Origin: Devosia nitrariae
GTDB lineage: Bacteria > Pseudomonadota > Alphaproteobacteria > Rhizobiales > Devosiaceae
Reading direction: 5' to 3'
DNA length: 64,000 bases
Assembly: GCF_030160115.1 (NCBI RefSeq)
Contig: NZ_BSNS01000009.1
Location: 62,001 to 126,000 of the forward strand
The position numbers and the translations under genes are program-made. Below, piece by piece: positions 14,019 to 45,614 of the stretch. Within the stretch, counting starts at the first letter, position 1. Each line of letters starts with the position of its first letter. The notes under the pieces are model-generated. The model was not told the origin of the DNA. It did no database searches and worked only from the letters and a program-made list of their open reading frames with translations.

Positions 14019-15461
14019 ATGGCCGACATCCTCAAGCCCGACCTCTGCATCATTGGCGCCGGCTCGAGCGGGTTGGCCGCGGCGGAAGCCGCTCGCGCGC
14101 TCGGGGCCCGCGTCGTCGTTATCGAAAGGGCAAGGATGGGCGGCGACGGCCTCAATGCCGGCGGTGTCCCGACCCGGGCGCTCGCCGCCGCCGGACGTAC
14201 CGCCCACACAATGCGCACGGCCGCGCGCTTCGGACTTGCCGAAAGGGAGCCCCATGTCGACATCGCCGCCGTCAATGCCCGTGTACGCTCCGTCGTTGCC
14301 GGCATTGCCCCGGAGGTGGCGCGTGAGCGTCTTGCCGCGCTCGGCGTCGAGGTGATTGCCGCCGAAGCCAGGTTCCTCGACCGCCGCACTGTCGGGGCTG
14401 GCGAGAAGCTGGTGCGGGCCCGCCGCTTCATCATTGCCACCGGCTCGCGCCCGACCATTCCCGCGATACCGGGCCTCGCCGACGTGCCGTTTCTCACCAC
14501 CGAAACGATTTTCCATCTCACCGAGCGGCCCAGGCGCCTTGCCATTGTCGGGGGCACGTCGGCTGGCCTCGAGATTGCCCAAGCCTATAGGCGGCTGGGC
14601 GCGCCCGTGGTTGTCATCGATGCCGGCCGGGCGCTCGCCGAGATCGATCCGGAACTGACCTCTGTCGCCCTGACCGCCTTGCGGACCCAGGGTGTCGACA
14701 TCCGCGAGCAAACCCGGATCACCGAGATCGTCGGCGGCGAGGGCGGAGCGATCGGCGTGCGGGTCGCGGGAGCCGAGGGGCAGCCGCAAACGCTTGAGGC
14801 ATCGCACCTGCTGATCGCCAGCGACCGCCACGCCAATATCGATGGTCTCGATCTCGCCAAGGCTGGCATCCGCATCGACCCCCGCGATGCCAGCCGGCTG
14901 CGCCTGTCTGCCGGTTTGCGCACGAGCAACCGCCGGTTCTACGCGATAGGCGATGCGACCGGCGGATCCCAGTCCACCCACGCCGCCCGCTACCAGGCCC
15001 AAAGCCTGGTGCGCCGTGTGCTCCTCGGCCCGCCCGCGCGCTACCAGCCATCGCTGGTGCCACGCGTCGTGTGGACCGATCCAGAGCTCGCCGAGGTGGG
15101 CCTGACAGAGCCGCAGGTGCGCGCGCGCCGCGGCACCGCCTACCGGGTGACGCGCCTGTCCCTGGCCGAGGTCGACCGGGCCTCGGCGCAGGGCGAGGGG
15201 CGCGGGGTTGCCCGTATGATCACCGATCCCTCCGGACGGATTCTGGGCGTCGGCATTGCCGGCCCGCAGGCCGGCGAATTGATTTCGCTGTTCGCTCTCG
15301 CCCTCGCCAATCGGCTGAGCGCACGTGATCTGGCAGGGTTCGTGGCGCCCTATCCGGCTCTCGGGGAGATCGCGCAGCGCCTGGGCCAGGAGCATTTGCG
15401 CAGCGCCGATACCGATCCCTGGCAAGCGCGGCGTCTCGCGCTCAACCGCCTGCTGCCCTGA
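14019..15461 (+). CDS. Pyridine-nucleotide-disulfide oxidoreductase homologue lacking the redox cysteines
   Basis: A 480-residue protein with the full architecture of dihydrolipoamide dehydrogenase or mercuric reductase: FAD-binding GAGSSG (about 13-18), NAD-binding GGTSAGLEIA, second FAD motif YAIGDATGG, and a dimerisation domain. The redox motif, normally GGTCLNxGC, reads GGDGLNAGG, so both cysteines are Gly (G44, G49). At the C-terminus the catalytic His of HPT is Tyr (Y445) while the Glu is kept (E450). A dithiol mechanism is therefore impossible, and it may be an NADH or quinone oxidoreductase or a sensor. An orphan histidine kinase follows 144 bases downstream. Confidence 0.88.
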   Translation: MADILKPDLCIIGAGSSGLAAAEAARALGARVVVIERARMGGDGLNAGGVPTRALAAAGRTAHTMRTAARFGLAEREPHVDIAAVNARVRSVVAGIAPEVARERLAALGVEVIAAEARFLDRRTVGAGEKLVRARRFIIATGSRPTIPAIPGLADVPFLTTETIFHLTERPRRLAIVGGTSAGLEIAQAYRRLGAPVVVIDAGRALAEIDPELTSVALTALRTQGVDIREQTRITEIVGGEGGAIGVRVAGAEGQPQTLEASHLLIASDRHANIDGLDLAKAGIRIDPRDASRLRLSAGLRTSNRRFYAIGDATGGSQSTHAARYQAQSLVRRVLLGPPARYQPSLVPRVVWTDPELAEVGLTEPQVRARRGTAYRVTRLSLAEVDRASAQGEGRGVARMITDPSGRILGVGIAGPQAGELISLFALALANRLSARDLAGFVAPYPALGEIAQRLGQEHLRSADTDPWQARRLALNRLLP

Positions 15462-38990: not shown

Positions 38991-39470
38991 CTATTCCTCG
39001 TCCTCGATCGGCTCGCCCGAGGGGGTGAGAAGATACCAGCCGCCCCACTCGTCGTGGACGCCTTGGCCCTCCGTGTCTCCAGGGGCCCGGTCGTCATGGT
39101 AATAGTGGAGTGGCCAGCCGTTGTAGGTCACTTGCATGGTGCCGTCATCGCGCTCGATGGTTGACAGCAGTGAGGCATCAAGCTCATCGCCGGCCATAGG
39201 CTCGCCCGTAGCGGTCATGACCGGCCACTCCTCGATGCATTCGCCGGTGCAGGTACTGACGGCCTCGGCACCGTCGCCGCCCTGGGTGTCAGCCTCGAGC
39301 ATATAGAGGCTCATGCCCTCGCCATCGACCACGTATTGACCAAATGGCTCCTTTTCGGAGATGGCGATCGTCGCGGTGCCGTCGTCTTGTGCGAGAGCCG
39401 CCAAGGGAACCGCGGCCGCCAGTGCAAGGCCGGCTGCGGCGCTCCAGGTTATGAAGTTGCGGTGTGTCAT
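38991..39470 (-). CDS. Secreted COG4315-type repeat protein
   Basis: A 159-residue exported protein with signal peptide 1-27 (ending ALA-QDD). The mature part is acidic and has two copies of the short beta motif of the COG4315 family: QYVVDGEGMSLYMLEAD and TYNGWPLHYYHDD. Family members are annotated as predicted lipoproteins with a Y-x-[FWY]-x-x-D pattern; no lipobox Cys is present here, so it is probably soluble in the periplasm. The function is unknown. An exceptionally strong ribosome site (AAAAAAGGAGGAG) precedes ATG 39470, suggesting high expression. Confidence 0.85.
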   Translation of the reverse strand: MTHRNFITWSAAAGLALAAAVPLAALAQDDGTATIAISEKEPFGQYVVDGEGMSLYMLEADTQGGDGAEAVSTCTGECIEEWPVMTATGEPMAGDELDASLLSTIERDDGTMQVTYNGWPLHYYHDDRAPGDTEGQGVHDEWGGWYLLTPSGEPIEDEE

Positions 39471-39726
39471 GATCTCCTCCTTTTTTGAGGTTGTCGGCGA
39501 CCCCGCGGCAACAGTTGATAACGCGCAACATCCGGGCACAGTTGCGACTTGAGGGCATCAGCAACTCGCCGAGACCGGCTCGTCTCCAGGCGGACTCGGA
39601 TGAACCACACGAGCAGCGGACGCGGCGCTTCTAAACCTTCTTAAGTCCCGGGAACTCCCGATCATTCCGACCTTCCGAAAACAGCCGCACTCGCGGCGTG
39701 ACGTGAATCTGAGAAGGAGGACTGAA

Positions 39727-40472
39727 ATGGCAGACGATCGATGGAGGGACGAGGGCTGGCGTCGCCGGGACGAGGGTTCTGACCGCTATCGGGAGGCGAG
39801 CGACTTCAACCGACGCCGCTACGGGCGAGGTTTTGGCGAAGGCGGGTACGGATACGAAGGTCGCGACTATGGGCGCTTCGGCGACATCGACTACGGCCCC
39901 GATTACGACCGCCGCTACGGCGATGATCGTCCCTACGGGAGCATGGGCGGGTACGGCCCTCCGTACGGGCGGGACTGGGCTGGCGGCCTGGGATACGGCC
40001 CCTATGGCCTCGGTTATGGAGAGCGCTACCGGGGTGGCCCCTATGGACAAGGATACGGGCGTGAAGGCTACGGTTGGCGGGGACGCGACTGGATGGACCG
40101 CGCTGGAGACGAAGTATCGTCATGGTTCGGCGATGACGAGGCGGCCCGTCGCCGCGAAATCGACCGGCGCCGCGGGGGCCATTACGGTCGCGGGCCAAGC
40201 GGCTACCGGCGCTCGGACGACCGTATCGCCGAAGCGTCAATGACCGGCTGACGGACGACTGGCGCCTGGATGCGAGCGCCATCTCGGTCAATGTCAGGGA
40301 CGGCGAGGTGACGCTCAACGGCTCCGTCCACAGTCGCGAGGACAAGCGGCGAGCCGAAGATCTTGCCGACGATGTCTCCGGCGTCAGGAACGTGCAGAAC
40401 AATCTGCGCGTTGAGATGTCTGGGCAGATGGAAGATCGTCAGGCCCGTTCTGGCACGGTGAGCACGCACTGA
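39727..40472 (+). pseudogene. SWFGD/BON-domain protein with Tyr/Gly/Arg-rich region, frameshifted
   Basis: The first frame (39727-40251) gives about 174 residues: a low-complexity region rich in Tyr, Gly, Arg and Asp with many YG steps, then the SWFGDDEAARRRE motif. It stops early at 40249-40251. In the +1 frame the sequence continues without a break from about 40236 to TGA 40470-40472 as VNDRLTDDWRLDAS, then VRDGEVTLNGSVHSREDKRR, which is a BON domain. One missing base near 40234 (GAA GC-GTC instead of GAA GAC GTC) explains it. AGGAGG precedes the ATG. A GC hairpin follows. Confidence 0.8.
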
Positions 40473-40481
40473 TCGCGCCGA

Positions 40482-40501
40482 GCCCGGGCTTCGGCCCGGG
40501 C
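40482..40501 (+). terminator. Stem-loop after the BON gene
   Basis: GCCCGGGC, loop TTCG, GCCCGGGC, eight perfect pairs with a stable UUCG loop, followed by CTTCCT. It starts 10 bases after the BON-frame stop. The T-run is poor, so termination may be partial. Confidence 0.5.
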
Positions 40502-40556
40502 CTTCCTGCCTCGGTCGCCGGAGTGTTCCTGAGCGGGGGTCACTGATGGTGATGAG

Positions 40557-41600
40557 ATGGAAAGGCAAAACGAGGCGGGACTAGTCGTTACGTCCATCCC
40601 GCGGGCAGAGCCGGCGTGGGAGCTCTTTCACTCCAACCGGACCGCCTGGACGGCGGCTTTCGGCTTGTGCGAGTCCGCAAGGCACAGCATCGCGATCGAG
40701 CAGTACATCTTCTCGCGCAAGGGCGTGGGTGACGACCTTCTTGACCTGCTCGCTTCAAGGGCGCGCGAGGGCCTGCGGGTTCGCGTGCTTGCCGATGCCT
40801 TCGGCAGCCAGCACCTTATCGACAGCGCACCGGCCAAGGCTTTGCGCAAAGCCGGTGGCGAGGTCGTGCACTTCCACGGCCTGCGCGATTTCGTGCGGGA
40901 TCCCAGAACGCTCATGCACCGGCTGCACCGCAAGGCCGTGATCTGCGACGACGACAGCCTGCTGACCGGCGGCTCGTGCTTCTCGCCGCGCATGGTCGAC
41001 TGGCGAGACACGATGGTGAGGGTCGATGGGCTGCTGGCGCGCGAGGCGCTGGCGGCTTTCGACGCGACCTGGTCCGCGGCCGAAGGGGGCAGGGGTCTGC
41101 CGCAAATTCCGGTTCGGGAACTGGATCCCCGCGCCTGGTCCTATCTGGTCAGTTGGCCCAAGTCGCCTGCCGGCAACGAGTATTACCGCCTGCTTCTCGA
41201 GCAGATCGGGGCGGCCCAGGCGAGCGTCGTGCTGACGACGCCCTATTTCCTGCCGGACAAGATCTTCGTGCAGTGCCTCCTGGACGCCGCTGCGAGAGGC
41301 GTGCGGGTCCGGCTTCTCCTTCCGGCCCACAGCGATCACCCGATGGTCGATCGGATCAGCAGCATCTTCACCCGAAAGCTGACGCAGGGGGGCGTCGAGG
41401 TGCACGGATATCTACCGGCGATGATGCACGCCAAGCTGGTCATCATCGACGCCGGCTTTGCTGCCGTCGGCAGCTTCAATCTCGGCTTAGACAGCTTCAG
41501 GATGAATTTGGAGGGTGCCGTCGCAACGGCCTCGCCCGATTTCATCTATGCCCTGACGGATCAGCTCGAACTGGATTTTTCCGTGTCCAAACGCATGTAG
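40557..41600 (+). CDS. Phospholipase D-family protein, cardiolipin synthase-like
   Basis: A 347-residue protein with two HKD motifs: H124-x-K126-x4-D131 (HRKAVICD) and H291-x-K293-x4-D298 (HAKLVIID), each followed by the Gly-Ser pair (GGSCFS and VGSFNL). This two-motif layout is that of bacterial cardiolipin synthases, here without the N-terminal membrane helices of ClsA, thus nearer to ClsB. It would condense phosphatidylglycerol or related lipids at the inner membrane. It is convergent with the endonuclease/exonuclease/phosphatase gene, one base between stops. That pairing of families recurs in other genomes and suggests a shared lipid job. Confidence 0.88.
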   Translation: MERQNEAGLVVTSIPRAEPAWELFHSNRTAWTAAFGLCESARHSIAIEQYIFSRKGVGDDLLDLLASRAREGLRVRVLADAFGSQHLIDSAPAKALRKAGGEVVHFHGLRDFVRDPRTLMHRLHRKAVICDDDSLLTGGSCFSPRMVDWRDTMVRVDGLLAREALAAFDATWSAAEGGRGLPQIPVRELDPRAWSYLVSWPKSPAGNEYYRLLLEQIGAAQASVVLTTPYFLPDKIFVQCLLDAAARGVRVRLLLPAHSDHPMVDRISSIFTRKLTQGGVEVHGYLPAMMHAKLVIIDAGFAAVGSFNLGLDSFRMNLEGAVATASPDFIYALTDQLELDFSVSKRM

Positions 41601-41601
41601 A

Positions 41602-42297
41602 TCAGGCGATCGGGATCTCGACATCCGCCCATACCGGCAGGTGGTCGGATGCGAGCCGCGCCAGCTCCGTGTTGTGCACGCCCGCTCCCATGATGGTGAC
41701 CTCCGGGCTGGTGATGATCCGGTCGAGGGGAAGGAGCGGCCACTTGGAATGAAAGCTCGGACCAGGCGCAACGACGTGGTGTTTGGCCTCGAAGCGACCG
41801 AGGCACCCCCAGCGCGTGTTCCACTCGTTGAGGTCTCCCATCATCACCAGGGACTTCTGCCGCTCGAGCGCGGAGATGTGCGCGAGGACCGTATCGGCCT
41901 GCCAATTCCGCCACAGCCCGACGAGGCCCAGATGCATGGCCACCACCCGAAAGTCGACGCCGTCGCAGGTGAGCTCCACAACGATCGCACCCCGCGGCTC
42001 TTCGAGGGCAGGCAGCGAGATGCACGTTGCCTGGTAGACGGTCACGTCCTCGCGCACCAGGACCATGTTGCCGCGCCACATGTACTGGCTCGGCCCCAAG
42101 AGAACCGCGTCATAGGAAAGCTGCGCGGCGTCGATTGCTTGCTCATGCGCGGCGAGCGAGGGCACGTCAGGATCGGTCTCCTGCACGGCAACGACGGCCG
42201 CATCGATCTCGCGCATGACCGCCAGGTTGCGCGAGAGATCCTTGCGTCGATCGGTGCCGACACCGCGGCGGATGTTGTAGGACGCAAAACGAAGCAT
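41602..42297 (-). CDS. Endonuclease/exonuclease/phosphatase-family protein
   Basis: A 231-residue EEP-fold protein starting MLRFASYNIRRG. Landmarks are the metal Glu in VVAVQETD, VVAMHLGLVG, the active Asp-Asn in MMGDLNEWN and the final SDHLPVWADV with the catalytic Asp-His. The frame is open upstream to 42903 but this part has no family similarity; ATG 42297 is the natural start. Members cleave phosphodiesters in DNA, RNA or phosphoinositide and sphingolipid heads. Proximity to a phospholipase D protein favours a lipid substrate. Confidence 0.87.
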   Translation of the reverse strand: MLRFASYNIRRGVGTDRRKDLSRNLAVMREIDAAVVAVQETDPDVPSLAAHEQAIDAAQLSYDAVLLGPSQYMWRGNMVLVREDVTVYQATCISLPALEEPRGAIVVELTCDGVDFRVVAMHLGLVGLWRNWQADTVLAHISALERQKSLVMMGDLNEWNTRWGCLGRFEAKHHVVAPGPSFHSKWPLLPLDRIITSPEVTIMGAGVHNTELARLASDHLPVWADVEIPIA

Positions 42298-42564
42298 GGC
42301 CTTTAAACACCGCCTCCGGTCGGCAGTTCCGCCCGCTGCCCAAACCTGCGTGGCCGTGACGTGATGTCGGACGACGTCCGTAACTGCGTCAAGGATGCCG
42401 ACACGGAGGAGGCGGGCAGCACCCTCGGTACTCCATTGAGCACCCGGCAGGACTTCGCGTTGCTTCAGATTAGCGCGAGCAACCCCAGGGATTGCGATCG
42501 AGTTCGGGCAAGGCGAGGCGCGATGACGGAAAGCGTCCGTGTACGCAAGTGTTGGAGGCTGGAG

Positions 42565-42918
42565 ATGGCCAAGGCCACCTATGAGATCGTCGAGCATAAT
42601 GGCGGCTTCGCCTACCGAGTGGGCGACGTCTATTCTGAAACCTTCGCCACCCATCGGGCGGCGCACGAGGCCGCCGAGAGCGCAGCGCAGCGCCAGCAAT
42701 TGGGCGGGAGCGACGAACAGATCCTTTACCAGGACGAAGACGGACGTTGGCGCGAGGAATTCGCACCGGGTGACCAGCGTCCGGACGCTGGCGTCGACGA
42801 TCGCCTGCCGGCCGATAATGAGGCGCGCGACGCGCGGGGCCGGATCCTGGACGAAGACGAGGTGCCGAATCCCGACCGGGCGCCTCTGGGAGACCTCAAC
42901 CACACCAAGCCACGCTGA
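42565..42918 (+). CDS. DUF2188-like small protein
   Basis: A 117-residue acidic protein. The N-terminal half (YEIVEHNGGFAYRVGDVYSE, then THRAAHEAAESAAQRQ) is typical of the DUF2188 family, in which a short beta-hairpin is followed by an Ala-rich helix. The C-terminal half is Asp/Arg-rich and probably disordered. ATG 42565 follows GGAGGCTGGAG. The function is unknown. Such proteins tend to occur near stress-related genes. Confidence 0.75.
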   Translation: MAKATYEIVEHNGGFAYRVGDVYSETFATHRAAHEAAESAAQRQQLGGSDEQILYQDEDGRWREEFAPGDQRPDAGVDDRLPADNEARDARGRILDEDEVPNPDRAPLGDLNHTKPR

Positions 42919-43064
42919 ACCCGGAGTCCGATGGCCGCTGGTGGCGACATCGGCGCAGCGATGCGTGGGCGTCCTCTACACCAAGGGATCGATTTGTTTG
43001 ACTCGGGCGTTCGGACCAGGAACGACAGCACTGTCTGGCTGACACGCAAACTAAGGCGAAGAGT

Positions 43065-45614
43065 TTGGCCGCAGGCGACAAGGACACCGTCATCGTCACT
43101 GGCAGCGCGGGCTATATCGGCTCCAAGCTGGTTCTGGCGCTTGCGCGCAAGTACCGGGTCGTCGGGTTCGACCGCGATGTACCGCCGCATCCGCCACCCA
43201 ACGCGGAATGCGTGTGCATCGATCTCACGCTGGACGACAGCGTCGAAGCCGCTTTTGCGCGAGTGCGGACCGCCTATGGGAAACGCATCGCCTCGGTCGT
43301 CCACCTTGCCGCCTATTTCGACCTCAGCGGCAAGGAGCACCCCCTCTATGACGCGGTGACCGTCGGGGGAACCCGACGGCTGCTGAAGGCGCTGCAGGGT
43401 TTCGACGTCGAGCAGTTCATCTTCGTCAGCACCATGCTGGTCCATGCTCCCGGGACACCCGGCCATCCGATCAACGAGGATTGGCCGCTTGATCCGAAGC
43501 TTCCCTATCGGGCCTCGAAGGCGCGTACCGAGGCGGCCATCGGTGAAGACCGGGGCGGCATCCCGGCGGTGATGTTGCGACCGGCCGGTGTCTACGACGA
43601 CATGTGCCATTCGGCCTTTCTGTCGCAGCAGATTGCCCGCATTTACGAGAAAGAGCTGATCAGCCACGTCTACCCCGGCGATCTCGACACAGGGCAGCCT
43701 TTCCTCCACCTCGACGACCTGACGGACGCGGTGCTGCGCACGATCGCGCGACGCGCCGACTTGCCTCCCGAAGTGCCGATCCTTCTGGGGGAGAGCCGGG
43801 CCCTTACGTTCCAGCAACTCCAGGACCGGATCGGACAGCTGATCTATGGTGAGGGCTGGCAGACCCTCTCGATTCCCAAGCCTCTCGCGCGCGCCGGTGT
43901 CTGGGTCGAGAACGAGGTTCTGGAGGAAGACACGTTCATCCAGCCGTGGATGGTCGACACCTCCGACGACCACTACGAACTCGACATCTCCCGCGCAAAG
44001 GAAACGCTGGGCTGGAAGCCCAAACATTTCGTGGGCGAGCGTCTGCCGGTGATGATCGAGGCGCTCAAGGCCGATCCGGTGGGCTGGTACAAGGCCAATG
44101 GCCTGAATTCCGCCCCCATCACCGATCAGGCACTGACGCAGGATGATGGGCAAGAGGAGCAAGCGGAGGCAGACCCGGTCACTCATCATCGCATGATGCA
44201 TGAGCATGATGCCGAGATGGAGCGAATGCACTTCGGCATGCTCTGGGTGCACTTTCTCAATATGCTCCTGGGGCTGTGGCTCGCGACCAGCCCGTTCGTG
44301 TTCGACACCTTCGATCCGCCGGCCTTTTCGGATGCCGTCATGCGGGTGACCGAGGAGCGCGGGCTGTGGGATCCGGCGCTGCGAAGCTCCATGAACGCCT
44401 GGAGCGATGTCGTCAGCGGCCTGCTGATCATCGGCTTCGCCACACTTTCCCTCTCGCGCAAACTCGCATGGGCGCAGTGGGGCACGGCGGCCGTCGGGAC
44501 ATGGCTGCTGTTCGCGCCGCTGATCTTCTGGACGCCGAGCGCGGCGACCTATGCCAACGACACCCTGATCGGAGCGCTGGTCATCGCCTTCTCCATCCTC
44601 GTGCCGATGATGCCCGGCATGGCCATGGAAGGCATGATGGACGATAGCGACATGCCTCCGGGTTGGACCTATTCCCCCTCGACCTATCTGCAGCGGCTGC
44701 CGATCATTGCCCTCGGTGCCATCGGATTCGTGCTGGCGCGGGTGCTTGCGGCGTACCAGCTCGGCCATGTCGATGGCGTGTGGGAGCCGTTCTTCGGCGG
44801 GGAAGGCGGGCTCAACGGCACCGAAGAGATCATCACCTCCGACGTCTCCAAGGCTTGGCCGATCGCCGATGGCGGACTGGGGGCGACCACATACATGATC
44901 GAGATCCTGATGGGCGTCATGGGCGGCCGCTCGCGCTGGCGAACCATGCCCTGGATGGTGCTGTTGTTCGGCATCGTCGTCGTCCCGCTCGGCGTCGTCT
45001 CGATCTACTTCATCATCATCCAGCCGATCGTCATCGGCACCTATTGCACCATCTGCCTGTTGGCGGCCGTCGCGATGCTGATCATGATCCCCTATGCCCT
45101 CGACGAGCTCGTCGCCATGGGACAATTCCTGATGCAAAGCCATCGGCGCGGTGAACCGTTCGTCAGGACCTTCCTGATGGGCGGTGCCGACCCCAATGGC
45201 GGCAAGGAATTCCAGGCGAGTTTTGGCGATGGCGCCGGTCCGGCGGCAATCTCTGCCATGCGCGGTGTGACACTGCCCTGGACACTGGTTGCATCGTGCC
45301 TGGTCGGCGTCTGGCTGATGTTCAGCCCGCTGACATTGGGAACATCGGGGCCGATGGCCGACAGCGACCATTTGACCGGTGCGCTGGTCATCACCGTCGC
45401 GGTGATCGCCATGGCTGAAGTCGCGCGGCCGCTACGCTTCATCAACCTGGCCTTCGGCCTTTGGCTACTCGTCGCCCCATGGATCCTCGCCGGTGAGAGC
45501 ATGATCGCGGCAGTTGTCGGTGTCCTGGCCGGCCTGATTCTGATCGGCCTGTCACTGCCGCGCGGAACCCGCAGCCGAGAGCATTATGGGAGCTGGGACC
45601 GGTTCATTGTCTGA
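43065..45614 (+). CDS. SDR epimerase - SPW-type membrane - VKOR-like fusion protein
   Basis: An 849-residue multidomain protein, start TTG 43065 after AAGGCGAAGAG. Residues 1-345 are an extended SDR with GSAGYIG, VSTMLVH and the catalytic Y-x-x-x-K (YRASK). A His/Met-rich linker (about 372-392) leads to SPW-type membrane segments (WLATSPF near 405, WLLFAPL near 480). Residues about 542-700 are VKOR-like, with the C661-x-x-C664 redox motif (YCTICLLA) in a membrane helix. A second SPW-type pair follows (WLMFSPL near 755, WLLVAPW near 800). The VKOR-like part has no other cysteine, so the loop pair of classical VKOR is missing. It should sit in the inner membrane with a cytoplasmic SDR domain. 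Confidence 0.85.
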   Translation: MAAGDKDTVIVTGSAGYIGSKLVLALARKYRVVGFDRDVPPHPPPNAECVCIDLTLDDSVEAAFARVRTAYGKRIASVVHLAAYFDLSGKEHPLYDAVTVGGTRRLLKALQGFDVEQFIFVSTMLVHAPGTPGHPINEDWPLDPKLPYRASKARTEAAIGEDRGGIPAVMLRPAGVYDDMCHSAFLSQQIARIYEKELISHVYPGDLDTGQPFLHLDDLTDAVLRTIARRADLPPEVPILLGESRALTFQQLQDRIGQLIYGEGWQTLSIPKPLARAGVWVENEVLEEDTFIQPWMVDTSDDHYELDISRAKETLGWKPKHFVGERLPVMIEALKADPVGWYKANGLNSAPITDQALTQDDGQEEQAEADPVTHHRMMHEHDAEMERMHFGMLWVHFLNMLLGLWLATSPFVFDTFDPPAFSDAVMRVTEERGLWDPALRSSMNAWSDVVSGLLIIGFATLSLSRKLAWAQWGTAAVGTWLLFAPLIFWTPSAATYANDTLIGALVIAFSILVPMMPGMAMEGMMDDSDMPPGWTYSPSTYLQRLPIIALGAIGFVLARVLAAYQLGHVDGVWEPFFGGEGGLNGTEEIITSDVSKAWPIADGGLGATTYMIEILMGVMGGRSRWRTMPWMVLLFGIVVVPLGVVSIYFIIIQPIVIGTYCTICLLAAVAMLIMIPYALDELVAMGQFLMQSHRRGEPFVRTFLMGGADPNGGKEFQASFGDGAGPAAISAMRGVTLPWTLVASCLVGVWLMFSPLTLGTSGPMADSDHLTGALVITVAVIAMAEVARPLRFINLAFGLWLLVAPWILAGESMIAAVVGVLAGLILIGLSLPRGTRSREHYGSWDRFIV

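Follow-up and report, generated by a model that had tools for sequence, protein, structure and literature searches.

The 64,000-nucleotide stretch of Devosia nitrariae DNA analysed here (assembly GCF_030160115.1, contig NZ_BSNS01000009.1, positions 62,001 to 126,000 of the forward strand; hereafter the window) carries at 43065-45614, on the plus strand, a gene for a single chain of 849 residues that joins an extended short-chain dehydrogenase/reductase (SDR) domain, through a His/Met-rich linker, to a membrane part made of a VKOR-fold bundle set between two SPW blocks. The family to which this protein belongs is an accessory, horizontally spread family of the inner membrane. On balance we favour the view, suggested by sequence and gene context, that it is a membrane protein of copper or envelope stress with a cytosolic NAD(P)-dependent SDR domain and a methionine-rich VKOR-fold core which would probably bind Cu(I). 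A role in copper stress appears quite probable for the Met-rich type of the family and binding of Cu(I) by its methionine sites likely, whereas the path of electrons through the protein and its direction can be proposed only with much doubt. The gene and its parts are:

43065..45614, plus strand, 849-residue gene SDR-linker-SPW-VKOR-SPW (frame, Pfam, sole full-length match in the genome)
43077..44099, plus strand, extended SDR domain, residues 5-345 (TG-x-x-G-x-x-G at 12-19; S122/Y148/K152; GalE fold)
44106..44240, plus strand, His/Met-rich linker, residues 348-392, predicted cytosolic (H381 and M385 conserved)
44241..44600, plus strand, first SPW block, four predicted helices, residues 393-512 (Pfam, model; N-terminal SPW in the separate-gene homologues)
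44604..44642, plus strand, Met-rich segment, residues 514-526 (M515, M516, M519, M524, M525), marker of the copper-associated type
44685..45146, plus strand, VKOR-fold four-helix bundle, residues 541-694 (Pfam, model, 4nv2 at Z 12.8 over 140 residues)
44760..44867, plus strand, VKOR loop without cysteine, residues 566-601 (S592, S595 and, just after it, D602 invariant)
45045..45056, plus strand, CxxC pair C661/C664 at the predicted periplasmic end of the last VKOR helix (sequence, model)
45279..45557, plus strand, second SPW block, residues 739-831 (Pfam, model)

Copper genes and methionine-rich members

A scan of GTDB by tblastn matched 502 stretches, the best 80 of which were kept and are referred to as the 80 loci. 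Copper markers, namely CopA, DUF411, multicopper oxidase (MCO), CopB, PCuAC, Csp and CueR, were sought within 8 kb by tblastn with reference proteins from annotated plasmids, and the search was repeated with more queries and a coverage limit. At least one marker was present in 54 of the 80 loci, at least two kinds in 31 and one other than CueR in 45, bearing in mind that the CueR, CopA and MCO queries can also match other MerR regulators, P-type ATPases and multicopper oxidases. As a control, DUF411 was located at 77 places in 30 whole genomes (about 150 Mb), which scaled to 459 kb of flanks gives an expectation of 0.24, as against the 17 of 30 loci in which DUF411 lies near the fusion. On annotated plasmids the gene has copper genes around it, among them cueR, P-type ATPase, DUF411, MCO, SCO, PCuAC, copK and copB. 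RND permeases, found in 26 of the 80 loci, were not counted as copper markers because they may export other metals or drugs.

The copper markers go with one of two sequence types. Methionines and the CxxC were scored in 100 of 101 fused loci (L013, whose frame is shorter than 600 residues, was left out), the window copy and five homologues in which the membrane part is a separate gene. When at least four of M515, M516, M519, M524 and M525 define the Met type, 83 of the 100 fused loci belong to it and 17 are Met-poor, the latter including the near-duplicates L085 with L090 and L123 with L142. Copper markers stand beside 56 of the 83 Met-type but none of the 17 Met-poor loci (Fisher 1e-7, kinship ignored), and two of these 17 have weak RND matches (22-24%). 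Of the 207 positions of the membrane part that are conserved in the Met type, 13 are methionines; ten of these are lost in the Met-poor type, compared with 23 of the 194 other positions (Fisher 6e-7, kinship likewise ignored; L064, which is masked and could not be scored for CxxC, was left out here too). Similarly, His and Met together make up 18% of the linker in the Met type and 7% in the Met-poor type. All five separate-gene homologues retain M515, M619, M631, M674 and M685 and four of them M616, while two of the five segment methionines are present in four of the homologues and all five in that of Stutzerimonas. We regard the methionine difference between the types as real in terms of sequence, with a tie to copper that rests on two changes in the tree. 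The window copy is of Met type, as are the five nearest rows of the tree, three of which lie beside copper markers; it is therefore expected to share the copper role despite its PLD, EEP and DUF2188 neighbours.

A sign of metal binding in the sequence comes from one relative, L136, which belongs to the same bacterial family as the window genome. Its linker holds three CPMHPE-type repeats that Pfam recognizes as heavy metal binding domain (HMBD, E 2e-30), in one chain with Epimerase, SPW and VKOR; among the 106 sequences the motif occurs in this linker only.

L136 8611-11721, minus strand, relative with three HMBD in the linker (Pfam)

These domains, together with the copper-gene context of the family, lend substance to the guess of the initial annotation that the linker could bind metal. 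No copper genes were recognized beside L136 among ten neighbour proteins scanned (of 16 listed) or by the marker search; a cytochrome c and an FtsH-type protease are encoded nearby. A His-Glu run is found in the linker of L089, from a Cupriavidus plasmid, and of the near-identical L137, which are 39% identical to the window protein in the SDR and 66% in the membrane part.

Several observations weigh against a role in copper handling. The tree was a quick one, made with the Met sites left out and with SH-aLRT support only, and it came with long-branch warnings; on it the Met trait changes only twice and the copper label 23 times, and an independent-pairs test is powerless; the Fisher values thus ignore kinship. 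Keeping the best 80 of 502 stretches, and searching with six peptides of which two or three hold type-specific methionines, favours the Met type in the sample. In 26 of the 80 loci no copper marker was found (25 of the 80 have flanks shortened by contig ends), and three of the four aligned homologues from archaea (three) and Nitrospirota (one) have a copper context with only two of the five segment methionines each. No annotated copper gene was found within 7 kb of the Halocatena module, nor a copper-resistance cluster in the annotated stretches viewed of S. medicae, Mesorhizobium 131-2-1 and Alteromonas; the Mesorhizobium record, which is Met-poor (L127), has an annotated plastocyanin-type gene nearby. 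Two annotated copper islands also carry mer or ars genes and the Glaciecola copy has mer genes with no copper gene listed, and some of the copper linkage may therefore be hitch-hiking. In the window itself none of the reference copper proteins matched anywhere in the 64 kb, the neighbours of the gene are PLD, EEP and DUF2188 proteins and a two-component system, and the HMA-domain matches of the genome lie on other contigs. Moreover, Cu(I) sites made of methionine alone usually lie outside the cytoplasm, whereas the topology proposed below would put most of the present ones inside the cell. Our literature search found no published experiment on any member of the family.

A genuine fusion with a VKOR-like core

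The initial annotation had described a four-part chain and had considered that its junction might be an artefact. The junction between SDR and membrane part is genuine, since 75 of the 80 loci, all in other genomes, hold the tblastn match in a single frame of 827-977 residues. In the window the frame starts with TTG, contains no internal stops and is preceded by AAGG at 43053-43056, eight bases 5' of the start; Epimerase, SPW and VKOR each score above the Pfam gathering score, the linker lies between the first two, and the genome (5.5 Mb in 35 contigs) has one full-length match, the window gene itself. The four-part chain is thus borne out by the frame, by the Pfam matches and model, and by the intact frames of its relatives. 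The five other loci comprise an interrupted 337-residue frame (L013), frames of 782 and 657 residues at contig ends (L052 and L068), a partly masked frame of 739 (L064) and a frame of 770 whose match extends to residue 748 (L079); all five were left out of one conservation alignment, which accordingly covers 75 of the 80 loci. The copies annotated as split in Jiella and Croceicoccus are most likely frameshifted, through sequencing error or decay, because neither matched length (2533 and 2522 bases, respectively) is divisible by three. An antisense open frame of 881 residues lies opposite the gene (42726-45371, minus strand) and is probably a by-product of GC-rich codon use.

Occurrence of the family is sparse. 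Sampling of other genomes turned up the membrane part or the whole gene in 5 of 386 from the class, in 7 of 396 from the phylum and in 6 of 135 from the bacterial family, a distribution typical of a mobile accessory gene. Among 246 matched plasmid records, 118 match 80% or more of the query at a single place, and Sinorhizobium strains form the largest group (73 of 246); the three record listings name 60 among 246, 246 and 138 records.

Within the membrane part, SPW (PF03779) matches three stretches (84.8 bits against a gathering score of 31.5; best at 739-831, E 5.8e-24) and VKOR (PF07884) matches residues 546-678 over profile positions 2-133 of 134 (E 7.2e-23; 81.6 bits against 27.5), which removes the earlier reservation that the helices might fail to match VKOR in a profile search. 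Structure prediction of the whole chain, a check that the initial annotation had proposed, gave a GalE-fold SDR and a twelve-helix membrane part (mean pLDDT 86, pTM 0.56). Fold searches with the whole chain were filled by SDR structures and thus uninformative on the membrane part, which was therefore modelled and searched alone (mean pLDDT 87, pTM 0.81). In the whole-chain model we read the membrane part as twelve long helices arranged as four, four (the VKOR bundle) and four. The first nine rows of a VIA search with the membrane model are all VKOR chains at Z 11.7-12.8 (4nv2 over 140 residues). These values call for caution: Z below about 13 can be common for bundles of helices, and on the first SPW block helical chains of no relation score as high as Z 11.1. 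Foldseek also placed VKOR on top, yet with E 0.1 or worse, and a sequence profile of the VKOR part run against the PDB found no VKOR chain. The structure alignments comprised 63 (A1) and 46 (A2) of the 80 loci and, in A3, 20 loci with four separate-gene homologues.

The model suggests twelve membrane helices with both chain ends in the cytosol. Given a cytosolic NAD(P) domain, the cytosolic side would also take in the linker, the Met segment 514-526, an Arg-rich turn at 622-626 and the C-terminus, and the outer side would have the CxxC together with the loop 566-601 and the SPW-like motifs; a location of the SPW motifs near the outer side agrees with the published SPW model as given in the consulted sections of PMC8078820.

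The motif C661-x-x-C664 is positioned as the initial annotation had stated, and its remark that the loop cysteines are missing extends to the family: none of the 106 aligned sequences has a cysteine at 566-601, so that the loop pair by which membership in VKOR may be judged is found in none of them. S592 and S595 of this loop are invariant (106 of 106), and both are candidates for the position of Ser57 in human VKOR. In the consulted part of PMC7895805 the human loop pair, Cys43/Cys51, is called absolutely conserved among VKOR homologues. A VKOR phylogeny of 2015 culled sequences without the known conserved residues, according to the portion of PMC4555120 at hand, and proteins without loop cysteines were therefore probably left out. 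Of 105 scorable sequences, 95 retain the CxxC; the other ten have SxxA (nine) or AxxT (one) in its place, by three changes on the tree and in both the Met and the Met-poor type. A redox step at the CxxC is therefore no shared function of all members, and the earlier conclusion that the CxxC 'must use another route' finds no support.

Could the protein then be a thiol-quinone oxidoreductase of the VKOR kind, whose CxxC reacts directly with a DsbA/DsbE-type protein or with glutathione and needs no relay pair in cis, the copper linkage reflecting repair of copper-damaged disulfides? The VKOR fold and the wide retention of the CxxC speak in its favour, as do the DsbE, CcdA and DsbA genes found in 23, 18 and 14 of the 80 loci, respectively. 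Human VKOR, moreover, retains 77.5% activity with Cys51Ala, and a bypass of the loop pair by glutathione has been proposed, although Cys43Ala leaves only 8.4% (PMC7895805, in the part consulted). However, ten members have replaced the CxxC while the rest of the protein is kept, each of the Dsb-type genes is missing near most members, and the distinction between the types in methionine would go unexplained. We thus consider this explanation possible but rather improbable.

Separate membrane modules and neighbouring genes

In six records, two from Manganitrophus and one each from Halocatena, Natrinema, Halalkalicoccus and Stutzerimonas, SPW-VKOR-SPW is a gene of its own, and genes for a GH15 protein and a classical SDR adjoin it or lie one gene away. 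The resulting cassette thus recurs across Halobacteria, Nitrospirota and Stutzerimonas, for the most part close to copper genes. In five of the six records viewed, the module has a four-helix copper protein, a P-type ATPase, CopB or MCO nearby.

L120 4935-9319, GH15 (trehalase-like) / SPW-VKOR-SPW / classical SDR cassette
L121 4815-9304, the same cassette
L122 6863-11181, the same cassette
L124 6893-11234, the same cassette
L126 4863-9229, the same cassette

A trehalase-like domain forms the N-terminal part of the GH15 protein that was scanned with Pfam, and two scanned with NCBIfam matched trehalase models below their cut-offs. Two of the separate SDRs were scanned and are classical, of the PRK07109 subfamily, and none of seven tested gave a blastp match to the fused SDR at E 1e-3. 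The idea that the fusion arose by simple joining of a neighbouring SDR was dropped for these two reasons. The initial annotation had foreseen that the domains might be separate genes in other organisms: this holds for the membrane module, which in the three groups named stands beside an unrelated classical SDR, and leaves the window fusion genuine. The module is thus accompanied by an NAD(P) dehydrogenase of one kind or another, with which it may work together. Near the fusion itself, GH15 was found in 13 of the 80 loci and a glucose-1-dehydrogenase-like SDR in ten.

No promoter of the general-stress (EcfG) type was found upstream of the window gene; EcfG-type matches occur in 15 of 86 upstream stretches compared with 2.1 in mononucleotide shuffles, and a CueR-type box in one of 86 compared with 0.3. 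The Sinorhizobium copies L085 and L090 have GGAAC-N-GTT 46 and 34 bases upstream, sites that look like general stress control, and ZIP, DNA ligase and catalase genes nearby. Beside the fusion in the window, 38991-42918 encodes a Lipoprotein_15 repeat protein, PLD-type and EEP-type genes and a DUF2188 protein, and this region may be a stress island. Among Met-poor members, L123 (Alteromonas) is near cytochrome oxidase genes, L130 near COX2 and L139 near LigD and Ku. Caa3_CtaG matched three of the 80 neighbour proteins scanned, out of 124 open reading frames listed. Elsewhere in the window, 14019-15461 (plus strand) encodes a flavoprotein disulfide reductase with 34% identity to the MerA query, perhaps a dihydrolipoamide dehydrogenase.

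Proposed function and relation to known systems

It is also conceivable, but in our judgement unlikely, that the protein is an enzyme of general envelope stress or of lipid modification which stress and metal islands carry as cargo, with the copper linkage due to hitch-hiking and the methionines to packing. Consistent with this are the non-copper setting of the window copy, the proximity of some Met-poor members to LigD, Ku, catalase or cytochrome oxidase genes, the GGAAC-N-GTT upstream of the Sinorhizobium copies, and the HpnA, OleD-like and 3beta-HSD profiles that match the SDR weakly. Against it, the copper linkage recurs with differing sets of copper genes and in archaea as well, one linker carries HMBD domains, and methionine differs between the types out of proportion to the share of this residue.

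The SDR part matches Epimerase (PF01370) at residues 9-231 (E 4.5e-24) and adopts the GalE fold, with structural neighbours at VIA Z of about 30. Its motifs are well conserved (T12 and G13 in 74 of 76 sequences, S122 in 74 of 76, Y148 and K152 in 76 of 76). That it is an NDP-sugar enzyme for an envelope glycan, anchored by the membrane part, is very improbable: most of its closest structural neighbours are NDP-sugar epimerases or dehydratases and the catalytic residues are kept, but it reaches none of the NCBIfam equivalog cut-offs (galE 45 bits against 262, HpnA 39 against 368), no glycosyltransferase is among the annotated neighbours of seven inspected records, and the membrane part of relatives is closer to that of the window than their SDR is, by a median of 7 points.

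We therefore return to a protein of copper or envelope stress. In the mechanism that we propose, the SDR would use NAD(P)(H) at the cytosolic face, and Cu(I) would be held by the linker, by the Met segment before VKOR helix 1 and by Met616, Met619, Met631, Met674 and Met685 within the bundle. The VKOR bundle would bind or move copper, with the SDR supplying or sensing reducing power, and in members that keep it the CxxC at the periplasmic end of the bundle might serve a quinone- or small-thiol-linked redox step. A bolder version makes the VKOR fold a Cu(I) device, in which cytosolic and bundle methionines would pass Cu(I) toward the periplasmic CxxC and quinone, as a copper conduit or a quinone-linked cuprous oxidase coupled to NAD(P)H by the fused or neighbouring SDR. 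We hold this combined claim to be doubtful; if it were true, this would to our knowledge be the first VKOR-fold protein to handle metal rather than to relay disulfides.

With respect to the initial annotation, then, the fusion, the missing loop cysteines and the guess of a metal-binding linker have stood, its deduction about the route of the CxxC has not, and the copper link was no part of it. The present work offers a testable role for an uncharacterized family found in dozens of genomes and for the SPW repeat. If the copper reading is true, many copper islands include a membrane component, so far unrecognized, through which the handling of metal is linked to NAD(P) and perhaps to quinones. 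We know of no named copper protein with the SDR-SPW-VKOR architecture. In open-licence PubMed Central no paper was found on this fusion, on a copper role of VKOR or SPW proteins, or on a VKOR branch without loop cysteines. The one paper found that brings up VKOR and copper resistance together, PMC6803676, mentions a VKOR gene in a plasmid-like region of Sulfobacillus with metal-resistance genes, and its consulted part gives no architecture.

Compared with known systems, the protein shares with the VKOR family (PF07884; Synechococcus and human structures) the four-helix bundle, the CxxC at the start of the last helix and a profile match over 132 of 134 positions, but it differs in lacking the loop cysteine pair, in being flanked by SPW blocks, in having lost the CxxC in some members and in its Met-rich bundle. 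It represents a VKOR branch that breaks the rule of 'absolutely conserved' loop cysteines, as that rule is worded in the consulted part of PMC7895805. With SPW repeat proteins (PF03779) it has the membrane repeat units in common, and Pfam architectures combining SPW with VKOR and SPW with epimerase are already in print (PMC8078820); the consulted sections of that account give neither a function nor the copper link. The SDR part has the fold, the NAD motif and the S-Y-K residues of extended SDRs and UDP-glucose 4-epimerase (PF01370), yet it scores below every NCBIfam cut-off displayed and is fused to a membrane module. Finally, with copper-resistance clusters (cueR, copA, DUF411, MCO and HMBD-bearing proteins) many members of the family, though not the window copy, share their loci, and the family has in common with them Met/His-rich segments and, in L136, the HMBD domains themselves.

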